From positions 1-44,395 of the IMG/VR virus record IMGVR_UViG_3300029787_004411: a DNA stretch of 44,395 nt. One strand, given 5' to 3'. The notes beneath the pieces are model-generated. The model made no database searches and was not told where the DNA came from. It saw nothing but the letters and a program-made list of their open reading frames with translations. The DNA is from a virus. A program made the position numbers and the translations under genes. This document shows positions 3,092-37,467 of the stretch, in pieces. How positions within the stretch are numbered: the first letter of the stretch is position 1; every line of letters starts with the position of its first letter.

Positions 3092-4414
3092 ATGGAAGAA
3101 CTGTTTGCAGTTTCAATGGGTATCATAGCAGGAATTATCACAGGTGTCGTGCCTGGAGCAGGAGTAACTGTGGCTATGGTAATTGCTACTCCTTTATTAT
3201 TTGATTTCACTGTGCTTCAATTGTTATTGTTTTATATGGCATTGGCCAGCATGGTGCAATTTACAGGCACTATTCCTGCTGTACTGTTAGGTGTGCCCGG
3301 CGAAACAAACAGTTTACCGGCTGTGATAGAAGGTACTAAATTTACGAAGCACGGATATTCACAACTTGCGGTAGGTGTGTCAGCATTGGGAAGTGTATTG
3401 GGGAGCATTGTTTCAGTGTGTCTCACCTTTGCATTGATATCGTTGTTGATATCTCATGTGTCAATGTTTTTTGGAAACAACACAAAATTCTATCTTTATA
3501 TTTTTGTCATTATATTTTGTATAATGGTGTATAATAAAAACAATATTCTACTGAATATTTTCTTGTGTGCTTTAGGATTTGCATTGAGCCTTCCGGGTGA
3601 AAGTGATATCAGTCCAGATATCAGATATACATTTGGCGTGACTGATCTTGAATATGGAGTCCCTTTGATCAGTGTGTTAATTGGATTCTTGGTTGTGCCT
3701 ACTCTGTATAATCTTTATAGCAATACTCACACAACATCTTTGTTTCCAAATAGGCCTATTAAGTTTTCAAAGGTAGTAGTTTTGTTTGTTAGACATTTTC
3801 CTAGTTCAATTAGAGGTAGTGTGATTGGTTACCTATGTGGATTTGTGCCAGGAGTCAGCACAGTGCTATCAACCAATGTAAGTTATTCTGTAGAAAAAAA
3901 ATTGCACCCATACAATCCAGGCAAACAATTAGTTGCGAGTGAAACAGCAAACAACTCAGGACAATTTGCAAGTATGCTTCCGCTGTTGCTCATTGGGATC
4001 CCAATCACAGGATCAGAAGTTGTGCTGTACAGTCTACTGATTGACGCAGGTTGGTCGCCCTTCCAGTTTAACAATACAGAACAGAATGCTGACTTAATTT
4101 TCCAACAATTAGTCCCATGGTTCGTGTTTGTAAATGTGTGTGGACTTTGTGTTGCTTGGCCTTTTGCAAAAAAGATTGTACAATTATTAACTGTTAAAAA
4201 AAATTATGTGATCTTCTTGCTGTTGTTGGGGATGATTTTGCTCAATACCTATATGGGCATACAGGATTATAGATTAGGTTTATACACTTGTTGTTTGTTT
4301 GTGTTTGGGTGTGTAGGACTATTATTAAGAAAACATGAACCAGTGCCTTTGATATTCTTATTCATACTAGGTAATGATATAGAAGGTGTGTTTATAAGAC
4401 AAATGTTAATTTAG
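3092..4414 (+). CDS. tctA: Tripartite tricarboxylate transporter large membrane subunit (TctA family)
   Basis: 440 residues with many hydrophobic segments. The two inverted halves of TctA are visible: an N-terminal GVVPGAG motif near residues 18-24 followed by AVLLGVPGETNSLPAVIEG, and a second one with CGFVPGVSTVLS, SETANNSGQFASMLPLL and LIGIPITGSE. TctA forms the transport channel that works with a periplasmic TctC protein to import carboxylates. It is somewhat shorter than typical bacterial TctA (about 500). The small TctB subunit is absent; tctC follows 11 bases downstream. Bacterial-type cargo, apparently intact, with its own sigma70-like promoter. Confidence 0.85.
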   Translation: MEELFAVSMGIIAGIITGVVPGAGVTVAMVIATPLLFDFTVLQLLLFYMALASMVQFTGTIPAVLLGVPGETNSLPAVIEGTKFTKHGYSQLAVGVSALGSVLGSIVSVCLTFALISLLISHVSMFFGNNTKFYLYIFVIIFCIMVYNKNNILLNIFLCALGFALSLPGESDISPDIRYTFGVTDLEYGVPLISVLIGFLVVPTLYNLYSNTHTTSLFPNRPIKFSKVVVLFVRHFPSSIRGSVIGYLCGFVPGVSTVLSTNVSYSVEKKLHPYNPGKQLVASETANNSGQFASMLPLLLIGIPITGSEVVLYSLLIDAGWSPFQFNNTEQNADLIFQQLVPWFVFVNVCGLCVAWPFAKKIVQLLTVKKNYVIFLLLLGMILLNTYMGIQDYRLGLYTCCLFVFGCVGLLLRKHEPVPLIFLFILGNDIEGVFIRQMLI

Positions 4415-4425
4415 GAGGAACAAAT

Positions 4426-5184
4426 ATGAAATTAACAATATTAATTTTGAGTTTATTGTTTGTGAATACATCATTCGCAGACCATATAGACTCTATCACA
4501 ATAATCAATAATGGCAAACCAGGAGGATCGTTCAATGCAAGAACTCAGTTGTACAAACAAGGATTGGAAGACAACGGATATCATGTGGATTATTTAGATG
4601 TTGGAAAAATTTCACAGGCAGTGAAAATGTTTAAAGAATCTACCGATCCAACTATAATGGTTTATGCTAACAATCAAGTCTTCAGACAAGACCTGTTTCA
4701 CACAGATCAAAATTTTGTTTTGTTAGAATATCAACAACCTTTGTATATTTGCAGTGCAAACAAATCCTTTAGTGATCCAGTTACTGTCGCTCATGGCAAA
4801 GGTTATGATCCTGATCTCATTAGATCTTTATTAGGTGAAGACATTGTACTTGTGCCTTACAAAAACAGCGGAGCCATGTTGAAAGGAATGTTGGGCGGCG
4901 ATGTTGACATGATGATTAACAATCAAGGCAAAAGTTTAACCTATATGGAATCAGGAGAAGGCAAGTGCGAAGCATCAGACAAACTGCCTACCATGCAAGC
5001 CACAGTGATAGCAAGGAACGTACACATACAAGAAATCAGAGAACTGTTGTTGCACATTACCCTTACTGATGATTTTGTCGATTATCATGGGTCAAGAAAA
5101 CTACAAAGACCTTACACAACATTCAACAATCGTGAAACTGAATTAGATTATGTGAAAGAACTTGAAAGTCAATGGAAGTACTAA
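4426..5184 (+). CDS. tctC: Periplasmic substrate-binding protein of the TctC family
   Basis: 252 residues with a clear Sec signal peptide (MKLTILILSLLFVNTSFA, then DHID). The mature part has NNGKPGGSFNARTQLY near the N-terminus, where TctC/BugD proteins bind the carboxylate, and VPYKNSGAMLKGMLGGDVD (about 144-162), the family's YKxxxxxxxxLxGGxVD motif. It is shorter than usual TctC (about 320). A strong Shine-Dalgarno AGGAGG precedes ATG 4426, consistent with an internal operon gene. It probably captures an organic acid for the TctA partner; the ligand cannot be read. Confidence 0.8.
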   Translation: MKLTILILSLLFVNTSFADHIDSITIINNGKPGGSFNARTQLYKQGLEDNGYHVDYLDVGKISQAVKMFKESTDPTIMVYANNQVFRQDLFHTDQNFVLLEYQQPLYICSANKSFSDPVTVAHGKGYDPDLIRSLLGEDIVLVPYKNSGAMLKGMLGGDVDMMINNQGKSLTYMESGEGKCEASDKLPTMQATVIARNVHIQEIRELLLHITLTDDFVDYHGSRKLQRPYTTFNNRETELDYVKELESQWKY

Positions 5185-5804
5185 ACCTTAAAGATAACAC
5201 AATAGGCGATTATCATCGCAATCTCATGAGCTATTATGAACAGGTAAAGACTGAACAAGATAAGATGCACAACGATGTAAAACTGTTAGGAAATTTTGAT
5301 GTACCTAACTTTGATTTAGATGCTCTTAATGTGCAGGACAGGACGATCCTTAGAGACAGAGATTGGGGCAGTAAGGCAGACTGGCGTGATTACATGATGA
5401 GCCATGGATACAATAAAAGCAACACAAAATTAGAGATGGTTGAAATGCAAGACTTGCCTACAGCATTATTAGATGTGTGTAATACCTTTGACATGCAGTT
5501 GCCCAACTTCACTATGAATATACAATCTCCTGGATCTGTTGTGCCTGCACACGAAGATACTTGGTACAAATGGTGTGATCGATATCCAAATGAAATGGAA
5601 CAGCACACATTCTACGATACAAAATTTTACATTTGGTTTTTATCAGATCGTGATGTTGGTCATGCTTTTCAGTGTGGACACACTGACATCAATTGGAAAC
5701 GTGGGGATTTGATAGAAATGCCTTTCTACGCCAGACATGCCACTTCAAACGCAGGATATACAGACAAACTGTTGATACAATGTTTGGGAATTAAACAACA
5801 TTGA
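5172..5804 (+). CDS. 2OG-Fe(II) / aspartyl-asparaginyl hydroxylase-like oxygenase
   Basis: 210 residues. The C-terminal half has a double-stranded beta-helix signature: PGSVVPAHEDTW with the HxD pair H127/D129, then WKRGDLIEMPFYARHATSNAG with H189 as the third iron ligand and K199 where an Arg often binds 2-oxoglutarate. Such enzymes hydroxylate proteins, small molecules or nucleic acids; the substrate is unknown. The start lies inside the end of tctC (13-base overlap), so it belongs to that operon. Confidence 0.6.
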   Translation: MEVLNLKDNTIGDYHRNLMSYYEQVKTEQDKMHNDVKLLGNFDVPNFDLDALNVQDRTILRDRDWGSKADWRDYMMSHGYNKSNTKLEMVEMQDLPTALLDVCNTFDMQLPNFTMNIQSPGSVVPAHEDTWYKWCDRYPNEMEQHTFYDTKFYIWFLSDRDVGHAFQCGHTDINWKRGDLIEMPFYARHATSNAGYTDKLLIQCLGIKQH

Positions 5805-5828
5805 CACAATCGATATATGTGTTACAAT
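5801..5828 (+). promoter_or_regulatory. Sigma70-type promoter at the UV endonuclease start codon
   Basis: Consensus -35 TTGACA (5801-5806), 16-base spacer, -10 TACAAT (5823-5828), then five bases to ATG 5834. It overlaps the end of the previous gene. Leaderless mRNA predicted. Confidence 0.75.
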
Positions 5829-5833
5829 AAGAC

Positions 5834-6868
5834 ATGAACAAACGTATTGGTTTCTGCTGTCAATGGTTTCACTATGATCAGACACTTAAGAAAAAACAAC
5901 TAGAAGAATTCCAACGCCCTTTCAATACGAGGTCAACAACTGTCCGTTGGCTCAACGAACACAAAGAAGAAGCAGAAGACAAATTGCAATTTGTGTTTCA
6001 TCACAACATACAAGCAATTAAAAATCTTATTACGAAAGTAGGTGAACTGCCTGTAGAACGTAGAATGTGCAGAATATCATCTCCTATACTACCAGTGGCA
6101 ACACAGATAGATTGGAAATACTATTGGGACAAGCCTGATGTGATAGCATACTGCGAAAAACACTTTGCTGAATGTGGTGAACTTGCAAGAACAAAGGATG
6201 TAAAAATATCATTCCATCCTGGGCAATTTACTGTGTTGGCTTCAGAAACTCCTGACATTGTAGAACGTAGCATAGAAGAATTTGAATATCATGCGTCAAT
6301 GGCTCGCATGATGGGTTTTGGTAAATCATTTCAAGATGGTTGCAAAATTAATGTACATATATCAGGTAGACAAGGCCCAGAAGGCATTCGTAAAGCATTG
6401 CCTCGACTGTCACCTGAAGCAAGAAATCTTATCACCATCGAGAATGATGAAATGGGTTGGGGCCTTGACGCTTCCTTGGAACTTGAAAAAGATCTTGCCC
6501 TTGTAATGGATATTCATCATCATTGGATCAGAGACGAAGAATACATAGATTCAAATGATGATAGAGTAAAACGTGTGAGAGATTCGTGGCGTGGTGTTAG
6601 ACCTACCATGCATTACTCTTATTCACGTGACGAACATCTAGCAGTTGCCGAACTAGGTGATCGAACACACACTGAGATGCACAACATCCAGGACTTATTG
6701 GCACGCGGTTGTAAAAAACAGAAACTTAGAGCACATTCTGACTATTTGCCCAATGCAAAAGTTAATGACTGGGCACTGAGTTTCTTAGACATGTTCGATA
6801 TACAAGTAGAAGCAAAGGCCAAAAACCTTGCTTCCGAACAGTTATACAACCAGTATTTGGCGTTATAA
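5834..6868 (+). CDS. uvsE: UV damage endonuclease (UVDE/UvsE family)
   Basis: 344 residues, full length for the family. The TIM-barrel motifs are visible in order: IGFCCQW at the N-terminus, CRISSPILPV, SFHPGQFTVL, KINVHISG, ITIENDEMGWGL and MDIHHHWI, followed by MHYSYSR and the C-terminal LRAHSDYLP. These hold the metal-binding His, Glu and Asp residues. UVDE nicks DNA 5' of UV photoproducts and begins a light-independent repair path, which suits a virus of sunlit water. It is monocistronic or heads the short run that follows; promoter immediately upstream. Confidence 0.92.
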   Translation: MNKRIGFCCQWFHYDQTLKKKQLEEFQRPFNTRSTTVRWLNEHKEEAEDKLQFVFHHNIQAIKNLITKVGELPVERRMCRISSPILPVATQIDWKYYWDKPDVIAYCEKHFAECGELARTKDVKISFHPGQFTVLASETPDIVERSIEEFEYHASMARMMGFGKSFQDGCKINVHISGRQGPEGIRKALPRLSPEARNLITIENDEMGWGLDASLELEKDLALVMDIHHHWIRDEEYIDSNDDRVKRVRDSWRGVRPTMHYSYSRDEHLAVAELGDRTHTEMHNIQDLLARGCKKQKLRAHSDYLPNAKVNDWALSFLDMFDIQVEAKAKNLASEQLYNQYLAL

Positions 6869-6879
6869 GTACATTTTTG

Positions 6880-6885
6880 TAAATA
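6880..6885 (+). promoter_or_regulatory. TAAATA box with leader and Shine-Dalgarno
   Basis: The box is 16 bases before ATG 6902 and a Shine-Dalgarno AAGGAG (6889-6894) lies between. If the start site is about six bases past the box, the mRNA would begin within the Shine-Dalgarno sequence itself. Confidence 0.35.
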
Positions 6886-6901
6886 AACAAGGAGAATGAT
6901 T

Positions 6902-7045
6902 ATGTCTATTTGGACTTGGCTATTAGGCGACAAAGCAGAAGCAACTACACCTGCAAAGAAAAAAGCAGTAAAAGTTACTGCTAAAAAGAAAAAGAAAAAA
7001 GTCGCTAAGAAAAAGAAAAAAGCCACAAAGAAAAAGAAAAAGTAA
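6902..7045 (+). CDS. 47-residue lysine-rich protein
   Basis: The N-terminus MSIWTWLLGDKAEATTPAKK is followed by runs of four to six Lys separated by single Val, Ala or Thr, like histone H1 tails or bacterial lysine-rich DNA-binding tails. About half the residues are Lys. A strong Shine-Dalgarno sits eight bases before the ATG. It may be a DNA-condensing or internal head protein; the Trp-rich start (WTWLL) could be an anchor. sodC begins three bases after its stop. Confidence 0.65.
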   Translation: MSIWTWLLGDKAEATTPAKKKAVKVTAKKKKKKVAKKKKKATKKKKK

Positions 7046-7048
7046 ATT

Positions 7049-7594
7049 ATGAAGATAGACCATGTGCTGTTTAAAGAATGCCCGAGAACAAAAGCCAAGG
7101 TCTGTGAATGTGATAGTGTTACCAGTTTATCAGAAGCAAATGAAACTGTAAATGCAACATCTGAACTGATACACTCAGACACTGTCAAAGGCACAATCAA
7201 GTTTACACAACAACCAGGTGGTCCAACTGTGATCACTGGAGAAATAACAGGTGTTGAACCTGGGGAGCATGGATTCCACATACATGAATTTGGAGACTTG
7301 TCCGGAGGATGTGACACTGCTGGTGCACATTACAATCCGGACAATGTTGATCATGGAGATCTAGAAGAAGGTCATGTTGGCGATCTAGGCAATGTCACTG
7401 CTAATGAAGAGGGAGTGGTAACATTGGACATATCTGCTTCTAGGGTTGACCTAAGTGGAGACCGTAGTGTGGTTGGTAGATCCATAATAATACACTCGGA
7501 CAGAGACGATCTAGGCCTGGGTGGCGATGCTGAATCAATCAAAACTGGTAACGCCGGCGAAAGATTGGCTTGTGGAGTGATTGTTCTTTCATAA
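7049..7594 (+). CDS. sodC: Cu/Zn superoxide dismutase
   Basis: 181 residues. All metal ligands are present: H77 and H79 (GFHIHEFGD), H94 (AHYNP), H102, H109 and D112 (HVGDLGN), and H149 (IIIHSDRDDLG). C88 and C175 form the expected disulfide pair and the active-site Arg is R172 (GNAGERLACG). The enzyme converts superoxide to peroxide and oxygen. Bacterial SodC is usually exported, yet no hydrophobic signal peptide is seen. Instead a ~45-residue N-terminal extension holds C11, C19 and C21 (CPRTKAKVCEC), possibly a metal-binding segment. It directly follows the lysine-rich gene and is probably co-transcribed with it. Confidence 0.93.
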   Translation: MKIDHVLFKECPRTKAKVCECDSVTSLSEANETVNATSELIHSDTVKGTIKFTQQPGGPTVITGEITGVEPGEHGFHIHEFGDLSGGCDTAGAHYNPDNVDHGDLEEGHVGDLGNVTANEEGVVTLDISASRVDLSGDRSVVGRSIIIHSDRDDLGLGGDAESIKTGNAGERLACGVIVLS

Positions 7595-7609
7595 ATTTTG
7601 TGTTATAAT
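7581..7609 (+). promoter_or_regulatory. Sigma70-type promoter at the sufT start codon
   Basis: -35 TTGTTC (7581-7586), 17-base spacer, -10 TATAAT (7604-7609), five bases to ATG 7615. The -35 lies inside the end of sodC. Leaderless mRNA predicted. Confidence 0.65.
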
Positions 7610-7614
7610 ACAGC

Positions 7615-7932
7615 ATGATAGATAGAGAACATTACGAAAAAGAATATCCTAATATAACTGAACAACTTCACAAAGTGTACGATCCAGAGATTCCTGTTGA
7701 CGTGTTTGAACTTGGATTAATTTATGATGTTCAGATCAATGAAGACAAGTCAGCTGATGTTGTAATGACATTGACCAGTCCTAACTGCCCAGTGGCGGGA
7801 GAACTACCATCATGGGTCCAAGAAGCAGTTGCTAATGCAGGATACTCTCCTGTAAGAATGCAACTTACATTTGACCCACCATGGGAAATGTCATTCATGA
7901 GCGATGATGCACGTTTATTAATGGGGATGTAA
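7615..7932 (+). CDS. sufT: MIP18/DUF59-family Fe-S assembly protein (SufT-like)
   Basis: 105 residues covering a whole DUF59 domain: VYDPEIPVDVFELGLIYDV (about 21-39), MTLTSPNCPVAGELPSWV with the conserved Cys, and the C-terminal LTFDPPWEMSFMSDDARLLMG. SufT-type proteins help to mature iron-sulfur proteins. The next gene is an IscA-like carrier, eight bases downstream, so the two probably act in cluster delivery, for example to the radical SAM enzymes encoded in this window. Confidence 0.88.
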   Translation: MIDREHYEKEYPNITEQLHKVYDPEIPVDVFELGLIYDVQINEDKSADVVMTLTSPNCPVAGELPSWVQEAVANAGYSPVRMQLTFDPPWEMSFMSDDARLLMGM

Positions 7933-7935
7933 ATA
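7930..7935 (+). promoter_or_regulatory. Late-type TAAATA box for iscA-like gene
   Basis: The TAA stop of sufT is the first half of the box. Five bases then ATG 7941; no Shine-Dalgarno close to the start. Confidence 0.6.
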
Positions 7936-7940
7936 CAGTT

Positions 7941-8261
7941 ATGATTGAATTGACTGAAAATGCTATAACACATTTGAAAACTCTTACTGAAAAAAATAAG
8001 AAAAATTATGTGCGACTATCAGTAAAAGGCGGTGGGTGTGCTGGCTTCGAATACGACTGGACATTTGAAGATGAAGAAGGTTATAAAAGAGATGATGTAC
8101 TGATTGAAGACCTTTTGTTGATTGATAGGATGTTTGAATTTTATATGTTAGGCATGACCTTAGATTACAAAGAAGAAATTTTTGGTTCTCAGTTTGTATT
8201 TGACAATCCACAAGCATCAAATAGTTGTGGTTGTGGCACATCATTTGCTGTCCAGCAGTAA
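7941..8261 (+). CDS. iscA: IscA/HesB-type Fe-S cluster carrier
   Basis: 106 residues. The three cluster-binding cysteines are present: C33 in GGGCAGFEYDW and C96/C98 in the C-terminal CGCG. The strand-rich middle and the FVFDNPQASNSCGCGTSF end are typical of A-type carriers, though the segment after GFEYDW is acidic and slightly unusual. It accepts Fe-S clusters and passes them to apoproteins. Paired with sufT, but with its own late-type box, so expression may continue or rise late. Confidence 0.88.
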   Translation: MIELTENAITHLKTLTEKNKKNYVRLSVKGGGCAGFEYDWTFEDEEGYKRDDVLIEDLLLIDRMFEFYMLGMTLDYKEEIFGSQFVFDNPQASNSCGCGTSFAVQQ

Positions 8262-8269: not shown

Positions 8270-8578
8270 ATGTATGATTTAATGGGTGCAATAGTGTCGG
8301 TATGGTTAGTTACCGTGACAGTTGAATTTGTAGAAATTGATCAACACTATTCTACATACAATCAAACCTTGACTTTTAGATCAGAACAACAATGCGAAAC
8401 AGTTTTAAGTGGTGGTAGCGAATACTTTGAAAAATCTTTCAAAGATTATTGGAGCACTGACAAATCAGAATTAAGTGAATACACCATAGAAAAATTTAGT
8501 CTAAACTGCATAGAATGGTATTTGGCTACAGATGGAGAATGGTATATGGTTGGGCAAGAACCTACAATTACAATTTGA
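8270..8578 (+). CDS. Hypothetical protein, 102 residues
   Basis: Not recognised. The N-terminus MYDLMGAIVSVWLVTVTVEF is hydrophobic enough for a signal anchor or buried strand; the rest is rich in Glu, Tyr and Ser with Cys52-type and Cys84-type single cysteines that could form a disulfide if exported. The start at 8270 is chosen because the TAAATA box is five bases upstream and the longer frame would overlap iscA. Its end overlaps the convergent gene at 8568-8849 by 11 bases. Confidence 0.6.
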   Translation: MYDLMGAIVSVWLVTVTVEFVEIDQHYSTYNQTLTFRSEQQCETVLSGGSEYFEKSFKDYWSTDKSELSEYTIEKFSLNCIEWYLATDGEWYMVGQEPTITI

Positions 8579-14491: not shown

Positions 14492-15016
14492 ATGATTACT
14501 GATGCATTTGGTAATTGTTCTTTTTCTACACGTGAAGTGATTGAATTACTGTACAGTGGCGAACCTGTTGATCAGTTGGTGTTAGGTGACTCAACAGAAG
14601 CCAGTCTACACACTACCCATGCCAAACATTTTGAAGTAGATGCATTAGCACAGCCAATGTTGATAGATATTCCTGTAGATCAATATCATGAATTACTGTC
14701 CGGCACATGGATAATGCCTGAGCAGTATAGAAGTATGGATATCGAACTGTATTTGACAGGACAAATGTCGCAACGCAAAATGATTGATGATGCATATATT
14801 GATAGGCTAGCAATTGAATTAGACGAATATACACAAAGGAACATGATGCACATACTAAAATATTTGATTTACATGATGGATGTGTGTAAACAAAACAACA
14901 TAGTTACTGGTATTGGTCGAGGTTCGAGTGTGAGCAGTTTGGTTCTCTATTTGATAGGTACCCATCACATAGACCCTATTAAATACAATTTAAGTTACAA
15001 AGAGTTTTTACGTTAG
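14492..15016 (+). CDS. DNA polymerase III alpha-like fragment
   Basis: 174 residues. The last ~70 match the start of the C-family (DnaE/PolC) palm region: LAIELDEYTQRNMMHILKYL, then NNIVTGIGRGSSVSSLVLYL, where bacterial DnaE has GPGRGSAAGSLVAY, then DPIKYNLSYKEFLR, where DnaE continues as DPLKYxLLFERFLNP. The protein stops just there, before the catalytic aspartates, and has no PHP domain. It cannot be an active polymerase on its own. It might be a partner, a decoy or a repurposed nucleotide-binding domain. A strong Shine-Dalgarno (AAGGAGG) and normal spacing argue against a decaying relic. Confidence 0.65.
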   Translation: MITDAFGNCSFSTREVIELLYSGEPVDQLVLGDSTEASLHTTHAKHFEVDALAQPMLIDIPVDQYHELLSGTWIMPEQYRSMDIELYLTGQMSQRKMIDDAYIDRLAIELDEYTQRNMMHILKYLIYMMDVCKQNNIVTGIGRGSSVSSLVLYLIGTHHIDPIKYNLSYKEFLR

Positions 15017-15245: not shown

Positions 15246-15653
15246 ATGGCATTTGGAGAATCAGTATCAGTATTTCATAAAATCAAAGGCACAATCACAC
15301 CATTAAAGAAACGTGTGCTGGTGTCGGACATGCACTTTGGTATGACTAAAACTAAAGGCGGAATCATACTGCAAGATGATGACGGATCTGCAGACGGTGT
15401 ACATCCACGTTGGGCCAAAGTATATGCTATTGGAAAAGATCAAGAAGATGTCAAAGTAGGACAATGGGTATTGATAGCACATGGACGTTGGACAAGATAT
15501 ATTAAACTGGAAGATGACACAGAAGTAAGAATGATAGACGAACATGATATCTTGCTAGTGTCTGACAAAGAGCCTGATCACAACAGAGTACATGCAGGTT
15601 ATCATAATCAAGGTGGAGCAAAACAAATGACTGCCCTGCCAGGCAATGATTAA
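15246..15653 (+). CDS. groES: GroES-like co-chaperonin (gp31 role)
   Basis: 135 residues. The GroES beta-barrel is visible: ITPLKKRVLVSDMHFGMTKT, a mobile-loop region GGIILQDDDGSADGVHPRW, then WAKVYAIGKDQEDVKVGQWV and the end EVRMIDEHDILLVSD. The last ~25 residues are a phage-type extension rich in His, Gly and Asn. In T4, gp31 replaces host GroES so that GroEL can fold the capsid protein; the same role is inferred here. No GroEL is seen. Position just before the clamp loader is an early-type arrangement with its own promoter. Confidence 0.85.
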   Translation: MAFGESVSVFHKIKGTITPLKKRVLVSDMHFGMTKTKGGIILQDDDGSADGVHPRWAKVYAIGKDQEDVKVGQWVLIAHGRWTRYIKLEDDTEVRMIDEHDILLVSDKEPDHNRVHAGYHNQGGAKQMTALPGND

Positions 15654-23343: not shown

Positions 23344-23371
23344 TTGACAGATCATCATTATATAGTATACT
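23344..23371 (+). promoter_or_regulatory. Sigma70-type promoter of the chaperone-protease operon
   Basis: Consensus -35 TTGACA (23344-23349), 16-base spacer, -10 TATACT (23366-23371), six bases to ATG 23378. It fixes that start, since the earlier ATG at 23372 touches the -10 box. Confidence 0.75.
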
Positions 23372-23377
23372 ATGAGC

Positions 23378-24187
23378 ATGGATCCTTACAGCACTCTAGG
23401 TGTAGATAGAAATGCGTCTGACAAAGAAATAAAGACAGCATTCAAAAACTTAGCCAAACAGTACCATCCAGATCGTGGTGGGGATGAATCTAAGTTTAAG
23501 GATATAAACACTGCTTATAGTCAAATAAAAAATCAAGAAGCAAGACAACAGTATGAACAAGAACAAGTGTTCGGCGAGGGCGGGATGCAATTTGATTTTG
23601 GTGGTAGTGGTTTTGAAGGAATCTTTGAGCAATTTTTTGGCGGTAATCCTGGATTCAGAAGAAGAACTGTGCAAAAGAATCGGAACATACAAATAGCACT
23701 TGAAGTATCATTAGAAGAAGTATTCACTGGTACTAAAAAAGATATCAATATAGACCAACTAGGCAAAACTATTAAGATTGATATTCCAAGAAGTATATCA
23801 TCAGGACAAACTGTGAGATACAGAGGTTTAGGTATGCAGGAATTTAAAAATTCTCAGCCTGGCGATTTGTTATGCAAAATATATGTTCAAGATCATCCAT
23901 ATTTTCAACGTGACGGGTTTAATCTGTATGCAGAACATTCGATCACCTGCTGGGACGCAATACAAGGAACATCTGTGAAAGTACAAACAATAGACGGAGG
24001 AAAAATTAGTTTAAAAGTGCCTGCTGGCACGCAACCAGGAACTGTAATGAAAATTGCCCAACATGGTCTTATGTCACCGTCAACAAGAATGGGCGATTTT
24101 TTTGTAAAGATAAATGTTAGTATACCATCCAATTTAATAGAGGAGGATTTAAATGTCATCAGAGACATCTCAAGAAAGTATTCTTAA
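23378..24187 (+). CDS. J-domain protein (DnaJ/CbpA type, no zinc finger)
   Basis: 269 residues. J domain at the N-terminus with HPD at 30-32 (KQYHPDRGGDESKFKDINTA), a short Gly/Phe linker (FGEGGMQFDFGGSGF), then the two C-terminal substrate domains (IALEVSLEEVFTGTKKDINI to LKVPAGTQPGTVMKIAQHG). The Cys-rich zinc finger of DnaJ is absent, as in CbpA. It would stimulate host DnaK to bind chosen proteins. The end overlaps the deformylase gene by 35 bases, so this operon is tightly coupled. Confidence 0.92.
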   Translation: MDPYSTLGVDRNASDKEIKTAFKNLAKQYHPDRGGDESKFKDINTAYSQIKNQEARQQYEQEQVFGEGGMQFDFGGSGFEGIFEQFFGGNPGFRRRTVQKNRNIQIALEVSLEEVFTGTKKDINIDQLGKTIKIDIPRSISSGQTVRYRGLGMQEFKNSQPGDLLCKIYVQDHPYFQRDGFNLYAEHSITCWDAIQGTSVKVQTIDGGKISLKVPAGTQPGTVMKIAQHGLMSPSTRMGDFFVKINVSIPSNLIEEDLNVIRDISRKYS

Positions 24188-24668
24188 GATAAATTTAGAA
24201 GGGCATGAAGCACTAAGACAAGTCATTCCTGAAACTGACCTGTCACAAGATTTAGAATATGATAAAATATCTGACCTCATGTACAGAACAATGAAAAAAG
24301 GTGACGGTCTGGGCCTAGCGGCTAACCAAGTTAGTGTTGGAATACGAATGTTTGTGATGTATGGAGATCTTACATTTATTAATCCAAAAATTATAGAAAC
24401 ATCAACTACCATGCAACTGGTCGAAGAAGGGTGTTTGTCGTTTCCTAATTTGTTTATGAAATTGCAACGTCCTGAATGGGCAGTGATGGAATATTATGAT
24501 AAAAATTTACAAAAACAAGTTGACAGATTCGAACATATATGGGCACAATGTATACAACACGAAATAGAACATTTAGATGGAATATGTTTTGTTGATAAAG
24601 TCAGCAAAATGAAATTAGATTATTACAGAAAGAAACAAAGGAAGTTAAATGATCCAAGCAGACGATAA
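24153..24668 (+). CDS. def: Peptide deformylase
   Basis: 171 residues with all three motifs: GLGLAANQ (52-59), EEGCLSFP with the metal-binding C94, and QHEIEHLDG with H136, E137 and H140. It removes the formyl group from new proteins, and phage deformylases are known in marine phages. Here it sits between a J-protein and ClpA. Strong Shine-Dalgarno (GAGGAGG) within the J-protein gene; its end overlaps clpA by 20 bases. Confidence 0.93.
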   Translation: MSSETSQESILKINLEGHEALRQVIPETDLSQDLEYDKISDLMYRTMKKGDGLGLAANQVSVGIRMFVMYGDLTFINPKIIETSTTMQLVEEGCLSFPNLFMKLQRPEWAVMEYYDKNLQKQVDRFEHIWAQCIQHEIEHLDGICFVDKVSKMKLDYYRKKQRKLNDPSRR

Positions 24669-26856
24669 ATTGAAACACATATTTGACGAAGCAGTTAAAA
24701 TTGCTAGATCTCATTCGCACGAATATATCACACTGGAACATTTGCTATTTGTTCTATTGATACAACCAGATCTTGATGAACTGTTACACAGTAACAAAGA
24801 TATTAATGTTGACCAAATGATGAACGATCTACAGGATCATATTGAAAATGGATTGAATGAAATTAAAAGCAAGGAAGAAGTGTATCCAAAAAGGACACAA
24901 TCTACAGAGCGTACAGTAAACAGAGCATTCACATCTGCAATATTTTCAGGTAAAGAATATGTGGATTGCTTTCAACTTGTATTGAGCATATTCGGAGAAA
25001 AAAATTCACATGCATTGTTTTTTATGTTAAAAAATGGACTTACTAAAAAAACTGTTGTTGACCACATGACAGAAGTTGGTACTGATGTACCTGATGAAAC
25101 ACAGGTGAATCAAAAACAAGCGGCCAAAATACTAAAAAATTACACAGTTGATTTAAACGAACAAGCAAAACAAAATAAAACATTTCATTGTATTGGTCGA
25201 CAAGATGTAGTAGATGAAATTGTGTTAGTGTTAGGAAGAAAAACAAAGAACAATGTTATCATGATAGGAGATCCAGGAGTAGGTAAAACTGCTATCGCAG
25301 AAGGATTAGCACACATGATAGTTGAAAACAAAGTGCCAGATGTTATTAAAGATCATACTATATTTTCTGTTGATGTTGGTTCATTAATTGCTGGATCAAA
25401 GTACAGAGGAGACTTTGAAGAACGTTTGAAAATATTATTATCAGTATTAGAAAAGAATGACAAAGCAATTATGTTTATTGATGAAGCACACATGATGCAT
25501 GGTGCAGGAGCAGGCGGCCAAGGTGGTGTTGATCTTGCAAACTTATTGAAACCAGCACTTGCAAGAGGAGATTTAAAAGTTATTGCTTCAACCACGTGGG
25601 AAGAATACAGAAAGCATTTTGAAAAAGACAGGGCATTAATGCGTAGATTTGGCAAAGTGAATATTGAAGAACCTAGTGTTGAACACGCAAAACAAATAAT
25701 GTCAGGACTCAAAGAACAATTTGAAGATTATCATAAAGTAGAAATCACATCAGATGCAATAGATGCCACAGTAGATCTATCGGTCAAACATATTACAGAC
25801 AGACAACTGCCTGACAAATCAATTGACGTATTAGACCGTGCTTGTTCTAAAGCAAAAATATTTGATGCTTTTAAAGATGTAGATATTAAAGATGTGCAGA
25901 AACAAGTTGCACAAATTTCAGGTGTGAAGTTTGAATCGATTGAACAAACAAAAACAGCCAGTATAGAAAATTTAGGTGAAACAGTCAAAACACAAGTGTT
26001 CGGACAAGACACTGTGATAGACAAATTGGTTGATACTGTGATTGTTGCTCAAGCAGGACTAAAGCAGGAAAACAAACCTATAGGATCTTTCCTTGCTGTT
26101 GGACCAACTGGTTGTGGAAAAACAGAAACTGCAAGGCAACTTGCTGATGGATTACACCTAACATTAGTCAAGTTTGATATGAGTGAATATCAAGAAAAAC
26201 ATTCTGTTGCTAAATTAATAGGATCGCCTCCAGGTTATGTAGGCTATGATGATGGCAACGCAGGACAACTTGTTAATGAATTAGAAAAACATCCTAACGC
26301 AGTCATACTGTTTGATGAGGTTGAGAAAGCACATAAAGATGTAATGACAATATTATTGCAGGCAATGGATGACGCTGTGATTACAGCATCTAATGGCAAG
26401 AAAGTGAGACTCAATAACTCAATCATAATAATGACTTCGAACTTGGGTGCTCAGGATATGCAGGCCAACACATTAGGATTCACTGAGAACAATGTGCATG
26501 ACGGAGAGATTGATATTAAAAATTATTTTGCACCAGAATTTAGAAATAGGTTGGACGCTGTGCTGAGATTTAAGCCATTAGAAAAAAAGGTAATGGCCAG
26601 TATTGTAGACAAATTTATTGCACAATTAAATGATCAGATGACAGATAAAAATATTAGTGTTAAACTATCCAAACAAGCAAAACAACAACTGCAAGAAGAA
26701 GGATTTGATGCTAAAATGGGTGCAAGACCACTGCAAAGAGTAATAAGCACAAGAATAAAACTACCTTTAAGTAAGAAGATACTTTTTGACAGTATTGCAA
26801 ACCAAAAACTTACAGTTGATTACAGTAAAGACTCAGACGAGTTTACAATAAACTAG
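24649..26856 (+). CDS. clpA: ClpA-type AAA+ unfoldase
   Basis: 735 residues. N-domain (FDEAVKIARSHSHEYITLEH), then two AAA+ modules: Walker A GDPGVGKT (207-214) with Walker B IMFIDEAH (D278/E279), and Walker A GPTGCGKT (485-492) with VILFDEVEKAH (D556/E557). No ClpB/ClpC middle domain is seen, so it is ClpA-like. LGF at 609-611, just before IDIKNYFAPEFRNRLD, is where ClpA has its ClpP-docking IGL loop, so it should dock on host ClpP. It would unfold chosen host or phage proteins for degradation. No ClpP in the window. Confidence 0.93.
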   Translation: MIQADDKLKHIFDEAVKIARSHSHEYITLEHLLFVLLIQPDLDELLHSNKDINVDQMMNDLQDHIENGLNEIKSKEEVYPKRTQSTERTVNRAFTSAIFSGKEYVDCFQLVLSIFGEKNSHALFFMLKNGLTKKTVVDHMTEVGTDVPDETQVNQKQAAKILKNYTVDLNEQAKQNKTFHCIGRQDVVDEIVLVLGRKTKNNVIMIGDPGVGKTAIAEGLAHMIVENKVPDVIKDHTIFSVDVGSLIAGSKYRGDFEERLKILLSVLEKNDKAIMFIDEAHMMHGAGAGGQGGVDLANLLKPALARGDLKVIASTTWEEYRKHFEKDRALMRRFGKVNIEEPSVEHAKQIMSGLKEQFEDYHKVEITSDAIDATVDLSVKHITDRQLPDKSIDVLDRACSKAKIFDAFKDVDIKDVQKQVAQISGVKFESIEQTKTASIENLGETVKTQVFGQDTVIDKLVDTVIVAQAGLKQENKPIGSFLAVGPTGCGKTETARQLADGLHLTLVKFDMSEYQEKHSVAKLIGSPPGYVGYDDGNAGQLVNELEKHPNAVILFDEVEKAHKDVMTILLQAMDDAVITASNGKKVRLNNSIIIMTSNLGAQDMQANTLGFTENNVHDGEIDIKNYFAPEFRNRLDAVLRFKPLEKKVMASIVDKFIAQLNDQMTDKNISVKLSKQAKQQLQEEGFDAKMGARPLQRVISTRIKLPLSKKILFDSIANQKLTVDYSKDSDEFTIN

Positions 26857-26863
26857 GAGATAC

Positions 26864-27145
26864 ATGAAAACAAATATTGTGAAATACATGATAGAGCACA
26901 ACTATCTAAAAAAGAATGCCATGCTTAATGCCACAATAGGTGTGCATGGACTAGGAGCACAACCATTAGATCTTGCAAAAGATTTATTGTTCGAAGCATG
27001 TGAAATTAAAGGACAAAAAATTGTTATCAAAGGATGCGATCCTGAAAATCTGCGTGAATATTTGGTTACTCCACAAAAAATACATGAGATCAACGGAATG
27101 GATGAAATCACTATCGAAAGACTGTTCCCTGAAATCTCTCAATAA
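26864..27145 (+). CDS. 93-residue protein downstream of clpA, possible adaptor
   Basis: Not recognised. Two parts: an N-terminal helix region (VKYMIEHNYLKKNAMLNATI) and GVHGLGAQPLDLAKDLLFEA, then a short alpha/beta end. It lacks the ClpS signature. It starts seven bases after the clpA stop with an AGGAG Shine-Dalgarno, exactly where bacterial clpA operons hold an adaptor gene (clpS lies upstream in bacteria). Adaptor or anti-adaptor is inference from place and size. Confidence 0.65.
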   Translation: MKTNIVKYMIEHNYLKKNAMLNATIGVHGLGAQPLDLAKDLLFEACEIKGQKIVIKGCDPENLREYLVTPQKIHEINGMDEITIERLFPEISQ

Positions 27146-27153: not shown

Positions 27154-27504
27154 ATGCCAAGCACATCGATCACTGTACAATCACAAATAGCTGCCGCTGA
27201 CTCAACTGCGGCCACAGTATCAGAAGCCGTCAAAGCAGATGGATATTATGGCAATGCAGACGGATTACACACAGTGGCATACATTTGCTCTTCAGATTTT
27301 GTTGGCACAATAAAAATGCAAGGATCACTTGCCACTGATCCAGACAATGCAACAGACTGGTTTGATATAGATGGAACAACAGCCGGTGATGATTCAACTG
27401 TGACAGCCACACAATATATAAATTTTACAGGAAATTTTGTGTGGGTTAGAGCATCAACCAATGTTGTTACTGGATCAGTAACCAAAATACTACTCAACTT
27501 TTAG
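27154..27504 (+). CDS. Small virion-type beta protein
   Basis: 116 residues, beta-rich and full of Thr, Asp, Ala and Gly. IKMQGSLATDPDNATDWFDI and NFVWVRASTNVVTGSVTKIL look like a jelly-roll or fibre-tip domain of the kind found in marine T4-like phage structural proteins. Leaderless start predicted, consistent with late expression. Confidence 0.6.
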   Translation: MPSTSITVQSQIAAADSTAATVSEAVKADGYYGNADGLHTVAYICSSDFVGTIKMQGSLATDPDNATDWFDIDGTTAGDDSTVTATQYINFTGNFVWVRASTNVVTGSVTKILLNF

Positions 27505-27513
27505 TTTAAGTAC

Positions 27514-28452
27514 ATGATGGAAGACATCACATGGCTTCATATCGAACCTACTACAAGATGTAATGCTTGGTGTCCTTTCTGTCCACGTAACGATCATGGT
27601 GTTAAACTTGCCGAAGGGTTAGTTCTACAAGATCTACCTGTAGAATGTTTAGAGGAAAGAATAAAACAATTTCCTAATCTTAAAGCAATACAATTTTGTG
27701 GAACATTTGGTGATCCATGTGCGGCAAAAAATATTGATGAACTATTAGATTGTGCATTTAGTTTTGATAATATCAAAACAGTACAAATACAAACAAACGG
27801 CAGTTTAAGAAAAGCAGAATGGTACGCAGAATTGCCCCAAAGAAGCAAAAATTTAGATTTATTACAAATATGGTTTGCAATAGACGGGACAAAAGAAACC
27901 AATCATATCTATAGACAAGGTACATCATGGGATAAAATTATGGAAAATGCCACAGCTTTCATACAAGCTGGAGGAGATGCATTATGGCAATTTATTCCTT
28001 TCAAACACAATAAACACGAAATTTTAGATGCATTTGGAATCAGTCAACGTATGGGATTTTCGCAATTTAGATTATTTGAAAATGACAGACCAAAACGTGG
28101 AGGCAAACATTATCGAACTGGAGAACCTTTGAATATAAGACCTTGGTATCGCGACGGAAAAGAACCACCTGAACACTTATTCGTTGATCAACTTTCATCA
28201 TGGGGCAACACCTACAACGAACGTGGCGAAAAATTTGTTAACACTGGCACAACTAACACTCATGTTAAAGATTCTAATTGTCAACATTTGAGAGAACGCA
28301 GTGTTTATCTTGATGCAAAAAATAATCTGTATCCTTGTTGTTTTTTATGGTGGGCAAATTGCAGTTACGAAAATACACACATCAATATTAAACAAGAATT
28401 CGAACAAAAAAGTTATAGGAATTATTGTTTGTCATTTTGCGGATCCCAATAA
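27514..28452 (+). CDS. Radical SAM enzyme with C-terminal SPASM-like cysteines
   Basis: 312 residues. CxxxCxxC in TRCNAWCPFCPRN (C16, C20, C23), then QFCGTFGDPCAA in place of the usual GGEP, and a C-terminal set of cysteines (NLYPCCFLWWANC, then CLSFCG) that can hold auxiliary clusters, as in SPASM enzymes that modify peptides. Substrate unknown. ATG 27517 is an alternative start; TAAGTA (27507-27512) precedes it. A cupin gene follows closely. Confidence 0.8.
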   Translation: MMEDITWLHIEPTTRCNAWCPFCPRNDHGVKLAEGLVLQDLPVECLEERIKQFPNLKAIQFCGTFGDPCAAKNIDELLDCAFSFDNIKTVQIQTNGSLRKAEWYAELPQRSKNLDLLQIWFAIDGTKETNHIYRQGTSWDKIMENATAFIQAGGDALWQFIPFKHNKHEILDAFGISQRMGFSQFRLFENDRPKRGGKHYRTGEPLNIRPWYRDGKEPPEHLFVDQLSSWGNTYNERGEKFVNTGTTNTHVKDSNCQHLRERSVYLDAKNNLYPCCFLWWANCSYENTHINIKQEFEQKSYRNYCLSFCGSQ

Positions 28453-28463
28453 CCAATCAACCA

Positions 28464-34290: not shown

Positions 34291-35502
34291 CTACAGACCT
34301 AATATCATTTTTGCAATAATATTCCGCTGTATTTCGTTAGATCCACCATATATAGATGCTTTTCTAAAGTTAAAATATTGTCCTGATCTGTCAATTGAAT
34401 GCTCCGGGCCTACAAAAAAGTTTGACCCTGATCTTTCTTGTACCCATGGATTGGCATAATAACCTACGGCTTCCATGGCCAGTTCTGTACATGCTTGTTG
34501 TATATCTGTGCCTTTAATTTTGAGTAGTGATGATTCAGCACCCGGGCCTTTTCCGGCCGCTTCTTTAGATAATGATCGTAGTTCAGTATATTCAAGTGCT
34601 TTCAATTCAAGTTCAACTTCAGCAATCTTCCTAGCAAAAGCAGGATCTTGTATTAATGGTTCACCATAATTTTTTTCATATGCGGCAATCTCTTTGATTC
34701 GTTGTACTGCTTTTTGCGATCTTGCCACTCCTGCTATACCGGATCTTTCATTTGCAAGTAAAAACTTAGCATAGTTCCAACCCATGTTTTCTTCGCCTAT
34801 TCTATTTTCAACAGGGACTTTGACATTGTCAAACCACGTTTCGTTTACTTCGTGTGTGCCATCCATTAGATAGATAGGACGTACTTCAATACCTGGAGTC
34901 TTCATATCAATTAATAAAAACGAAATTCCCTTCTGTGGTTTGTCAGCATCTTTGTTTGTACGCACTAAGCAAAAAATCCAATCGGCATGTTGTGCCAATG
35001 TGGTCCAAGTCTTTTGTCCGTTAACAATATAATGTGTGCCATCTTCCGAAAGGTCTGCTGTGGTTTTCAAACTTGCAAGGTCTGACCCAGCTCCAGGTTC
35101 TGAATAACCTTGACACCAAAAGTCTTCTCCTGAAAGAATTCCTGGAAGGAATCTGTCTTTTTGTTCCTGAGTGCCGAAGGTGTAAATTACAGGTGCACAC
35201 ATTACAGGGCCAAACGGCATTACAAATTGGCATTCGGCTCTAGCCATTTCTTGTTCAAAGATGTATTTTTGTGTCGCAGTAAATCCTGCTCCGCCATACT
35301 GTGTTGGCCATCCTGGTGCTGACCATCCTTTGTGAGCACCTAATATTTTGTGCCAAGCCATAAGTTCTTCTTTGGTTGGCTCTTGACCTATTTTTTTCTT
35401 CTCTGCAATTGAATCTTGTAACTCTTGTGGATAGTTGTCTTTAATAAATGATCTTACTTCTTGTTGGAAGTCGAGGTCTTCTTTTGAATATGTTGTGTCC
35501 AT
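34291..35502 (-). CDS. Acyl-CoA dehydrogenase
   Basis: 403 residues, full length. The family signature GYSEPGAGSDLASLKT (about 132-147), the FAD/acyl region WTTLAQHADWIFCLVRTNKD and the C-terminal GGSNEIQRNIIAKMILGL are all present. It oxidises acyl-CoA to enoyl-CoA with FAD. Where many family members have the base Glu (YEGTxxIQR), this protein reads IYGGSNEIQR, as in members with another base or acting in mixed complexes. Shine-Dalgarno AAGGAA precedes the ATG. Bacterial-type cargo, very unusual for a phage, on the minus strand beside a diiron protein. Confidence 0.9.
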   Translation of the reverse strand: MDTTYSKEDLDFQQEVRSFIKDNYPQELQDSIAEKKKIGQEPTKEELMAWHKILGAHKGWSAPGWPTQYGGAGFTATQKYIFEQEMARAECQFVMPFGPVMCAPVIYTFGTQEQKDRFLPGILSGEDFWCQGYSEPGAGSDLASLKTTADLSEDGTHYIVNGQKTWTTLAQHADWIFCLVRTNKDADKPQKGISFLLIDMKTPGIEVRPIYLMDGTHEVNETWFDNVKVPVENRIGEENMGWNYAKFLLANERSGIAGVARSQKAVQRIKEIAAYEKNYGEPLIQDPAFARKIAEVELELKALEYTELRSLSKEAAGKGPGAESSLLKIKGTDIQQACTELAMEAVGYYANPWVQERSGSNFFVGPEHSIDRSGQYFNFRKASIYGGSNEIQRNIIAKMILGL

Positions 35503-35599
35503 TTTTTGTTTCCTTTTTTTTCTAATGCTAGTATCCTGTGTATAGGAGCATTTTTGTATGTGCTTGTAATCATCATTCCTCCAACACGCACAGGTTTGA

Positions 35600-36778
35600 T
35601 CATGTGTTTATTTTCTGTAATATTTTTATGCCTTTATTTGCTATGTCAGTGCCTGCTACTTCATCATCTTCTTGGTGAAGTTCTTCCATATCAACATACT
35701 CTGCATAGGTTGACTTTGTTCTGTCGGTTATAATGTGTGCTTTTAATAATGTTTTTACCAGCACACGGAATATATTATTTTGCTGTCTCATTTCAGTTTT
35801 GGCAACTTCATCTCTATCTAATCCTGCTATAAATTCTTGTGCTACCCATTTATGATTCAATCCTACACTTTCGTATATTTCTTTCTTTTCCCATGGATTG
35901 ACAAGATTAAACAATAAGTTAGTAAACAGTGATTCTGACCAATCTTCTACTTTATGATGTTCTGACTCGGATAGTTTTGGAATAGTTCTATCTGCCCAAA
36001 TTTTGCCAAACTTATGATGAAATGCCTCATCACTCATTGTGTATTTTAAAAGTGTTTTGAGCAAAGGATCATTTGTATCTTCATGGGCCATTGCAAACGC
36101 ACCCATGGCTAATCCTTCAATCAGCATCTGCATACCAACAATTTTTTTGTACACCTGATCCGATGAGACAATGCTGTTTAATACCCTTCCAAGTGTTGGT
36201 CCAACTCTGTATGGTTTACCCCAACGTGCTTCTATGTATTTTGTAAACCCAAGGACATGTCTTGCTTCTTCTCTAGTTTGATTAGCCGCATATTCCTGTG
36301 CTCCTGGATCTTTTAATACATGACAAAGACTAGCACTTAAACTTAATGCTCCTTGTTCTCCATGTAATATCTGTGACAGCACCCATCTAAAACTTTCATT
36401 ACTAAGTTTAATTTTTTGTTTTTCATTCAGCTTGTCTGCTATGCTTGGAATACGTAGTTCCATGCAAAATACTCTGGGATCGCATATGTGATTATTTTCG
36501 GAATCAAATGGAATATCAAAATCTATATATTTTTTATCATTTGGATCCCAAAAATGTTTATGTGTAGCACTAATAATTTTATCAAATGCATCTGAACGTT
36601 CTCCATATCTGTCTTCGTCCATCATTGGTATAAAATGTTTAGGATTTGCGGCGTTGTATGCTGGATCTTTTGTCATAGAGTTTTTACCACTCAGTGACAT
36701 TTGGTAAGTTTTGTTCACTTTGAATGCTTGGTCTTTTACTACAATTTTTGCAAACTCTACTTTTTCTTTTACTGCCAT
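35600..36778 (-). CDS. Ferritin-like diiron oxygenase-type protein
   Basis: 392 residues from the ATG at 36778 (a TTG at 36808 would add ten). It carries the full four-helix diiron pattern: E141, E171-x-x-H174 (EEARHV), E221 and E251-x-x-H254 (DEAFHHKF). This matches ferritin-like oxygenases such as AurF-type N-oxygenases or fatty-acid or aldehyde-acting enzymes; the exact reaction is unknown. It precedes the acyl-CoA dehydrogenase on the same strand (97-base gap), so the two may act on the same acyl substrate. Confidence 0.7.
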   Translation of the reverse strand: MAVKEKVEFAKIVVKDQAFKVNKTYQMSLSGKNSMTKDPAYNAANPKHFIPMMDEDRYGERSDAFDKIISATHKHFWDPNDKKYIDFDIPFDSENNHICDPRVFCMELRIPSIADKLNEKQKIKLSNESFRWVLSQILHGEQGALSLSASLCHVLKDPGAQEYAANQTREEARHVLGFTKYIEARWGKPYRVGPTLGRVLNSIVSSDQVYKKIVGMQMLIEGLAMGAFAMAHEDTNDPLLKTLLKYTMSDEAFHHKFGKIWADRTIPKLSESEHHKVEDWSESLFTNLLFNLVNPWEKKEIYESVGLNHKWVAQEFIAGLDRDEVAKTEMRQQNNIFRVLVKTLLKAHIITDRTKSTYAEYVDMEELHQEDDEVAGTDIANKGIKILQKINT

Positions 36779-36786
36779 AGTAACTT

Positions 36787-36792
36787 TATTTA
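36787..36792 (-). promoter_or_regulatory. Minus-strand TAAATA box of the diiron gene
   Basis: Eight bases from the ATG at 36778, slightly longer than the five or six seen elsewhere. Lies four bases from the plus-strand box. Confidence 0.4.
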
Positions 36793-36796
36793 CTTT

Positions 36797-36802
36797 TAAA
36801 TA
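36797..36802 (+). promoter_or_regulatory. Late-type TAAATA box
   Basis: Five bases before ATG 36808; divergent from the minus-strand box four bases away. Confidence 0.6.
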
Positions 36803-36807
36803 TAACA

Positions 36808-37467
36808 ATGCAAAACCTTTTTGTCAATGGATGTTCTTTTAACGGCCCACGTAAAAAATGGGGTAAAGAGTGTAAAACATGGGCAGGGAAAGAAATAGCA
36901 GATCATTATGGAGCAACCTTGTACAATTTTGCACGTGGAGGTAGAGGCAACAGACGGATTTGTGATACAACCAAGTTGTTTTTTGAATCCAATCCAGAAC
37001 GCAAAAAAGATACATTTGCTTTAATACAATGGTCATCTCCTGGACGAAGAGACTATCCTACTGATGATGGATACAAACCAATGCAGGGATATTCAACCAC
37101 TTGGCGTACATGGAGCACACATGAGCAACCCAAGTTTGTGTCAGCACAGCAAGGATGGGATGTAGAGCAAGATCACTCGTTGCTACAACTTACACAGATG
37201 TTAGACACACAGAACTATCTAAAAATTAATGATATTCCATATGTGATGTACTTTGGATTGATATCACAAATAAACATAAAATATCCAGATCATCATACAC
37301 TGTTTAATGCATTAGATCACAGGATGATATTCAATCCGGCAACTAGTCATTACGAATTCTGTCAGTTCTGTAACTTGCAATTGAGTGATCAAGACGAACA
37401 TCCTTCAGCAGAAGGACACAAACAATGGGCCGAACAATTAATTAAATACATAGATGAAATTATTTGA
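36808..37467 (+). CDS. SGNH/GDSL-type hydrolase
   Basis: 219 residues with the SGNH blocks: NGCSFNGP (nucleophile Ser10, block I), FARGGRGNRRI (block II Gly/Asn), and DEHPSAEGHKQWAEQLI with the Asp-x-His pair (block V). These esterases often remove acyl or acetyl groups from surface sugars; on a phage they may act in the tail. Late-type box suggests a virion-related role. Confidence 0.7.
   Translation: MQNLFVNGCSFNGPRKKWGKECKTWAGKEIADHYGATLYNFARGGRGNRRICDTTKLFFESNPERKKDTFALIQWSSPGRRDYPTDDGYKPMQGYSTTWRTWSTHEQPKFVSAQQGWDVEQDHSLLQLTQMLDTQNYLKINDIPYVMYFGLISQINIKYPDHHTLFNALDHRMIFNPATSHYEFCQFCNLQLSDQDEHPSAEGHKQWAEQLIKYIDEII
37443..37448 (+). promoter_or_regulatory. Late-type TAAATA box inside the hydrolase gene
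   Basis: Five bases before ATG 37454, within the last codons of the preceding gene. Confidence 0.5.

Follow-up and report, generated by a model that had tools for sequence, protein, structure and literature searches.

The J-PDF-ClpA-X93 operon

The window that we analysed is a stretch of viral DNA of 44,395 bases, a fragment of the IMG/VR virus record IMGVR_UViG_3300029787_004411. It contains, head to tail on the plus strand, genes for a J-protein (J), a peptide deformylase (PDF), a ClpA-type unfoldase (ClpA) and a 93-residue protein that we call X93. An earlier reading of this DNA, made from the letters alone (the sequence-only reading), had described the four genes as one protein quality-control operon under a single promoter, in which neighbouring genes overlap first by 35 and then by 20 bases and the last two lie 7 bases apart. 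This layout was recovered in every respect, with open reading frames (ORFs) at 23372-24187, 24153-24668, 24649-26856 and 26864-27145 (plus strand), and one TTGACA-N16-TATACT site, the sole promoter-like site, was seen at the operon head. The features of the operon are as follows.

23344..23371, plus strand: sigma-70-type promoter TTGACA-N16-TATACT (TTGACA 23344-23349; TATACT 23366-23371), 11/12 consensus matches
23378..24187, plus strand (most likely start): J-protein, class B (CbpA-like), 269 amino acids; PF00226 (DnaJ), PF01556 (DnaJ_C), HPD motif
24140..24146, plus strand: Shine-Dalgarno site GAGGAGG of the PDF gene, within the J gene
24153..24668, plus strand: peptide deformylase, 171 amino acids; PF01327 1.5e-34; TIGR00079 116.9 bits, above the cut-off of 103.95
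24649..26856, plus strand: ClpA-type Hsp100 unfoldase, 735 amino acids, N-domain and two AAA+ modules; TIGR02639 811.6 bits; phrog_4871 797 bits
26473..26481, plus strand: codons of LGF (residues 609-611), a tripeptide that may dock ClpP; it aligns with the E. coli ClpA IGL loop
26864..27145, plus strand: X93, 93 amino acids, modelled as a small SH3/Tudor-like barrel protein; directly after ClpA in 13/13 window-clade loci

The promoter site is kept directly 5' of J in all window-clade relatives. Its -10 element abuts a first ATG (23372), and a second in-frame ATG (23378) lies six bases further on. In the relatives, too, a pair of in-frame ATGs with a spacing of six bases comes after the promoter; the exception is one locus (L012), which has the second ATG only. 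Because of this exception, and because distant J orthologues begin at the residue of the second ATG, J most likely starts at 23378 and not at 23372, with a product of 269 amino acids. Transcription is predicted to begin at or beside the A of this start codon, and the J mRNA is therefore predicted to be leaderless. Strong Shine-Dalgarno sites lie ahead of the PDF, ClpA and X93 genes.

The Pfam matches of J, PDF and ClpA all exceed the gathering scores. The zinc finger CxxCxGxG was not found in the J sequence and TIGR02349 gave 211 bits, below its cut-off of 377, so that J was rejected as a class A DnaJ and assigned to the class B, CbpA-like proteins. In PDF all three catalytic motifs are intact: GLGLAANQ, EEGCLSFP and QHEIEHLDG correspond to the family motifs GxGLAAxQ, EGCLS and QHExxHLxG, in agreement with the family score. 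PDF also carries a basic C-terminal extension; E. coli PDF binds the ribosome through an extension of similar kind.

ClpA has the ClpA-type Pfam architecture AAA / AAA_lid_9 / AAA_2 / ClpB_D2-small, and its residues 13-733 are colinear with E. coli ClpA. Both Walker A/B sets and an LGF at the ClpP-docking loop had been noticed in the sequence-only reading, and motif inspection and the alignment with E. coli ClpA bear this out: the Walker A/B pairs lie at residues 207-214/274-281 and 485-492/552-560, and the sensor and arginine-finger motifs of both AAA+ modules are intact as well. Unlike ClpB and ClpC, the protein has no middle domain and no domain-sized insertion at the D1-D2 junction relative to E. 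coli ClpA. Its likeness to E. coli ClpA (1KSF/1R6B) and to the ClpAPS complex (6W1Z series; PMC9663308) covers domain order, ATPase motifs, the position of IGL/LGF and the lack of a middle domain, whereas it differs from E. coli ClpA in having LGF for IGL, a score below equivalog level and an operon shared with J and PDF. As its TIGR02639 score lies under the NCBIfam equivalog cut-off (811.6 against 993.15), we call it ClpA-type and not NCBI's ClpA equivalog; the ClpAs of the 12 complete phage genomes considered below all fall short of that cut-off too. The docking tripeptide reads [LIV]G[FVY] in 64/64 distinct phage ClpAs, with an invariant Gly and F at the third position in 62, and the positions flanking it vary. 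A tripeptide held constant in a variable loop is what selection for ClpP docking would be expected to leave, and at the level of sequence the ability of ClpA to partner a ClpP is well supported.

X93 matched no family in Pfam or the other profile libraries searched. Its AlphaFold2 model (pLDDT 92) folds as an SH3/Tudor-like barrel; VIA-align Z scores of 7-8.8 against Tudor and SAWADEE domains are in the range of a common arrangement and say nothing of function. Foldseek found no significant match to the model in the PDB, and in BFVD two uncharacterised viral proteins matched. A tblastn search of the wider phage collection returned no match, and an X93 profile run against 25 phage records recovered its own clade alone at E<=1. 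When the X93-clade profile was scored against 1,111 control ORFs, the genes right after ClpA in Sinorhizobium phage Phosso and Agrobacterium phage Atu_ph07 ranked first and second (E 0.003 and 0.005), and a profile-profile comparison gave a probability of 94.5%. On score and position we accept these genes as remote X93 homologues; the E-values are modest and position is the main support. The "unknown partner" of the sequence-only reading thus keeps its lack of a family match, but it is no one-off: it is a conserved follower of ClpA with a predicted barrel fold, present also in these two phages. X93 was rejected as a ClpS, since it has no PF02617 profile match; in the contigs of X93-carrying relatives this profile matched only in one (G040), at a separate locus. 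In a distant marine clade (L015-L083), a conserved gene of ~220 amino acids with a motif roughly ETxKLxYxxYLYK takes the place of X93 after ClpA.

Conservation of the operon and co-occurrence with ClpP and ClpS

A scan of IMG/VR yielded 80 loci with a ClpA 48-97% identical to that of the window. J-PDF-ClpA is intact in 66 of them, J adjoins ClpA without PDF in 10, and the remaining four start at a contig edge inside the operon; a ClpA with neither J nor PDF beside it was found in 0/80. The overlaps recur too: that of J with PDF is mostly 35, 26 or 14 bases long, and that of PDF with ClpA 20, 17, 14 or 8. The search for this gene order in other phages that the sequence-only reading had proposed thus returned it in 66 IMG/VR loci and in a cultured phage, Phosso (PV764938; XYS97351-XYS97354), where a DnaJ-like protein, a PDF, a Clp ATPase and the X93 homologue follow each other in the same order and on the same strand as in the window, with ClpP and ClpS elsewhere in the genome. 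Phosso differs from the window in a ClpA only ~41% identical, in short gaps instead of overlaps, and in showing no leaderless promoter signature in those parts of its sequence that were tested. Atu_ph07 and Pseudomonas phage PA5oct share with the relatives of the window the J-ClpA adjacency and a ClpP and a ClpS in the genome, but have no deformylase between J and ClpA; the hosts of both own a ClpA. PA5oct further resembles the window in having a chaperonin, a clamp loader and PhoH upstream of J-ClpA. The PDFs described from cyanophages and pelagiphages (Frank et al., 2013, as cited in PMC7029224) resemble that of the window in their catalytic motifs and in being phage-encoded, whereas the latter lies in a J-ClpA operon and has the basic C-terminal extension. 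With its gene order kept over deep divergence, the single quality-control operon is well supported. The window and PA5oct-like phages have clamp loaders 56% identical to each other, and the fragment therefore probably derives from the genome of a PA5oct-related jumbo myovirus.

Profiles for ClpP (PF00574) and ClpS (PF02617) were then sought in ClpA-bearing records, among them 12 complete genomes (Atu_ph07, Phosso, PA5oct, SCTP-2, Vibrio 2.275.O, GAP32, CBB, 121Q, RaK2, Munch, fENko-Kae01 and an uncultured 735-kb phage; the Vibrio 2.275.O record, counted as complete, is titled a partial genome). Both proteins are encoded in 11 of the 12, while among eight ClpA-less controls, hand-picked and non-random (phiKZ, T4, KVP40, G, P-SSM2, Lak-A1, S-SSM7 and SPN3US), ClpS occurred in none and ClpP in three. 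The co-occurrence of ClpS with ClpA has a Fisher p of 7e-5, and of 0.003 after related phages are collapsed. Closer to the window, the nearest relative (G002), with 87-92% DNA identity across window positions 1-30933 apart from short gaps, has a full ClpP ~5 kb past the position that matches the left end of the window. This ClpP matches solved bacterial ClpPs along its entire length, and the Ser-His-Asp triad is kept in 17 aligned phage ClpPs, including this one. Another member of the window clade (G040) holds ClpA-X93, ClpP and ClpS in one record; its ClpS gene (G040:C1:66083-66937, L224) directly adjoins an Hsp20-like gene. The ClpS proteins of marine phages keep the ND[DE]...H residues, which form the N-degron pocket of ClpS.

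Since complete ClpA-bearing genomes almost always add ClpP and ClpS, the phage probably brings a near-complete Clp protease. The explanation that we favour, with moderate confidence, makes the operon the unfoldase module of a ClpS-ClpA-ClpP system that a PA5oct-related marine jumbo myovirus encodes, and we infer that the phage of the window carries its own ClpP and ClpS, both outside the fragment. Several observations weigh against this explanation. No ClpP or ClpS lies inside the window, and in the genomes that have them their genes are distant from the ClpA operon. The uncultured 735-kb phage (LR756501) has ClpA and neither ClpP nor ClpS, and one or both are missing from several long ClpA-bearing contigs, all fragments, among them those of 236 kb (G026) and 330 kb (G028, with ClpS and no ClpP). 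Finally, the ClpS of Rak2-like phages has lost pocket residues. These ClpS-like proteins (L215, L217, L219, L221, L223) are ~185 amino acids long and have an N-terminal extension.

In the proposed mechanism, the promoter would drive the J gene, leaderless, and after it PDF, ClpA and X93, coupled in their translation. J would bring host DnaK to phage proteins that are nascent or have aggregated, and PDF would strip the formyl group from new phage proteins, leaving their N-termini free for processing and N-end recognition. ClpA would unfold substrates and use its LGF loop to dock on ClpP; the ClpP of the phage itself is the likeliest partner, and that of the host is probably one too. ClpS, encoded elsewhere in these genomes, would deliver N-degron substrates to ClpA-ClpP, and the small barrel of X93 is a candidate adaptor or regulator of ClpA. 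We infer both the formation of such a complex and its choice of substrates, which might be by-products of the phage, regulators of the host or defence proteins; the latter two, suggested as targets in the sequence-only reading, are purely speculative.

Predicted leaderless starts and other genes of the window

The arrangement at the start of J recurs across the window. At 19 of its 55 curated gene starts, a TATAAT-like or T4-late-like TAA[AG]TA element ends 4-7 bases upstream, against an expectation of 0.6, and all 19 genes are without a Shine-Dalgarno site. Such start-proximal positions take up 13 of the 35 TAARTA sites in the window. Examples are:

3092, 7615, 10530, 13102, 13703, 15693, 22981, 23378, 27154, 28861, 29470, 31960, 36808, 37454, 39384, 42762: starts 5-6 bases after a start-proximal element, with no Shine-Dalgarno site

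A peak of start-proximal elements also appears in related contigs, and was not seen in the stretches tested of T4, P-SSM2, PA5oct and Phosso. This suggests systematic leaderless expression in the lineage of the window. We found no literature on leaderless T4-late promoters; a remark cited in one paper holds that phage transcripts are often leaderless (PMC5312081). The signature also suggests the ATGs at 8270, 19428 and 38873 as the real starts of three ORFs whose listed starts are TTG 8225, TTG 19413 and GTG 38843.

A further folding gene lies upstream of the operon:

15246..15653, plus strand: GroES/gp31-like co-chaperonin; PF00166, phrog_931

The GroES-like gene that the sequence-only reading had placed at 15246 is real, with a PF00166 match of 34.4 bits against a gathering score of 21.1 for the Cpn10 family. 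It falls below the NCBIfam GroES cut-offs and scores higher with phrog_931, 'head morphogenesis'. Relatives have it as well, and its PA5oct counterpart is a 'chaperonin' adjoining the clamp loader.

Elsewhere in the window, a TctA transporter gene, a UvdE endonuclease, a Cu/Zn superoxide dismutase and two Fe-S assembly proteins are clustered at 3092-8261. A 174-residue protein (14492-15016) matches a short part of a DNA polymerase III alpha domain and may be one fragment of a gene that is split. Immediately behind the operon region, a radical SAM gene (27514-28452) is missing in the otherwise collinear contigs G001 and G002 (alignment gap 27503-28462).

The probable host and the possible partners of the phage ClpA

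The main clue to the host is an acyl-CoA dehydrogenase (34291-35502, minus strand) that stands beside a weak AurF-like diiron protein, both unusual genes for a phage; the two lie within 34291-36808 (minus strand). When 84,980 species genomes were searched with the dehydrogenase, the Pelagibacteraceae proteins among the 80 best matches were 75-77% identical to it, and the others no more than 63%. The TctA of the window is uninformative, with matches just 23-29% identical and none in SAR11, and the assignment to SAR11 therefore comes from the acyl-CoA dehydrogenase. On this one gene, SAR11 is the likely host. In 53 Pelagibacteraceae genomes, the ClpA model found no ClpA, ClpB or ClpC, its best score being 31 bits in partial matches to other AAA+ proteins, and ClpS was found in 0/53; ClpP is present in most, and full-length in ~39 of them. 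A host without ClpP, which the sequence-only reading had named as evidence against itself, is thus not what is found if SAR11 is the host.

The sequence-only reading had ClpA redirecting host ClpP. Its docking-competent ClpA stands, but host ClpP is now one possible partner, since relatives of the phage encode their own. That ClpA hijacks host ClpP only, steering it toward new substrates, we regard as unlikely: the docking loop is conserved and the probable host family has ClpP and no ClpA, ClpB, ClpC or ClpS, so that a phage ClpA would be an entirely new partner for host ClpP, but a 91%-identical relative, like every cultured one, carries a ClpP of its own, and host ClpP need not be the partner.

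Somewhat less probable still is a protease-independent role of ClpA in virion assembly, in which it would act with J and host DnaK as an assembly unfoldase or a disaggregase, much as ClpB does with DnaK. The constant adjacency of J and ClpA fits this, as does SAR11 having no ClpB, whose disaggregase function would be missing in the host. A role in virion assembly has been proposed for jumbo-phage ClpA (PMC7824862), and LC-MS/MS of a filter-purified particle preparation of fENko-Kae01 detected ClpA (PMC11218385). However, ClpA has no middle domain of the type that ClpB uses to dock DnaK, all 64 sequences keep the ClpP-docking tripeptide, and ClpP and ClpS co-occur with ClpA.

That nothing but a shared promoter joins the four genes, as a loose group of morons whose roles are unrelated (PDF, for example, serving phage translation only, as proposed for cyanophage PDF) is very improbable: PDF is found alone in many phages, is core in pelagimyophages within a DNA-metabolism operon (PMC7029224) and is missing from 10 of the 80 loci, but order and overlaps are kept in 66 of the 80 contigs, the order extends to Phosso with its distant ClpA, and X93 homologues follow ClpA in distant phages.

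The individual parts of the phage-encoded ClpS-ClpA-ClpP system that we favour have been published. Atu_ph07 was reported to encode Clp proteins including ClpA, ClpP and ClpS, plus DnaJ (PMC6102473); jumbo phages were described with ClpA, ClpX, DnaJ, and ClpP or 'instead' ClpS, some of them being suggested to steer host ClpAP with that ClpS (PMC7824862); ClpA is a core gene of moraphages (PMC12619734); and a 2026 review of jumbo phages makes no mention of Clp (PMC13282480). In the literature searched, we found no report of a J-PDF-ClpA-X93 operon or of a near-universal set of ClpA, ClpP and ClpS. Where earlier work lists ClpA, ClpP, ClpS and DnaJ one by one, nearly every complete ClpA-bearing genome tested here encodes all three Clp parts, and the gene of the unfoldase sits in a J-PDF-ClpA(-X93) operon that is itself conserved. 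With this, a regulated protease owned by the phage can be put to a direct test.

Should SAR11 prove to be the host, a bacterial group that ranks among the most abundant on Earth would gain from the phage an unfoldase class, the Hsp100 type, and an adaptor, both of which it lacks entirely. More tentatively, an abundant lineage of marine jumbo phages may install in SAR11 a complete ClpS-ClpA-ClpP N-degron protease, fed by its own PDF and J-protein, tuned by an X93 adaptor and expressed from a leaderless mRNA. If so, infection would give SAR11, which has ClpP and no ClpA, ClpB, ClpC or ClpS, a wholly new route of protein destruction.

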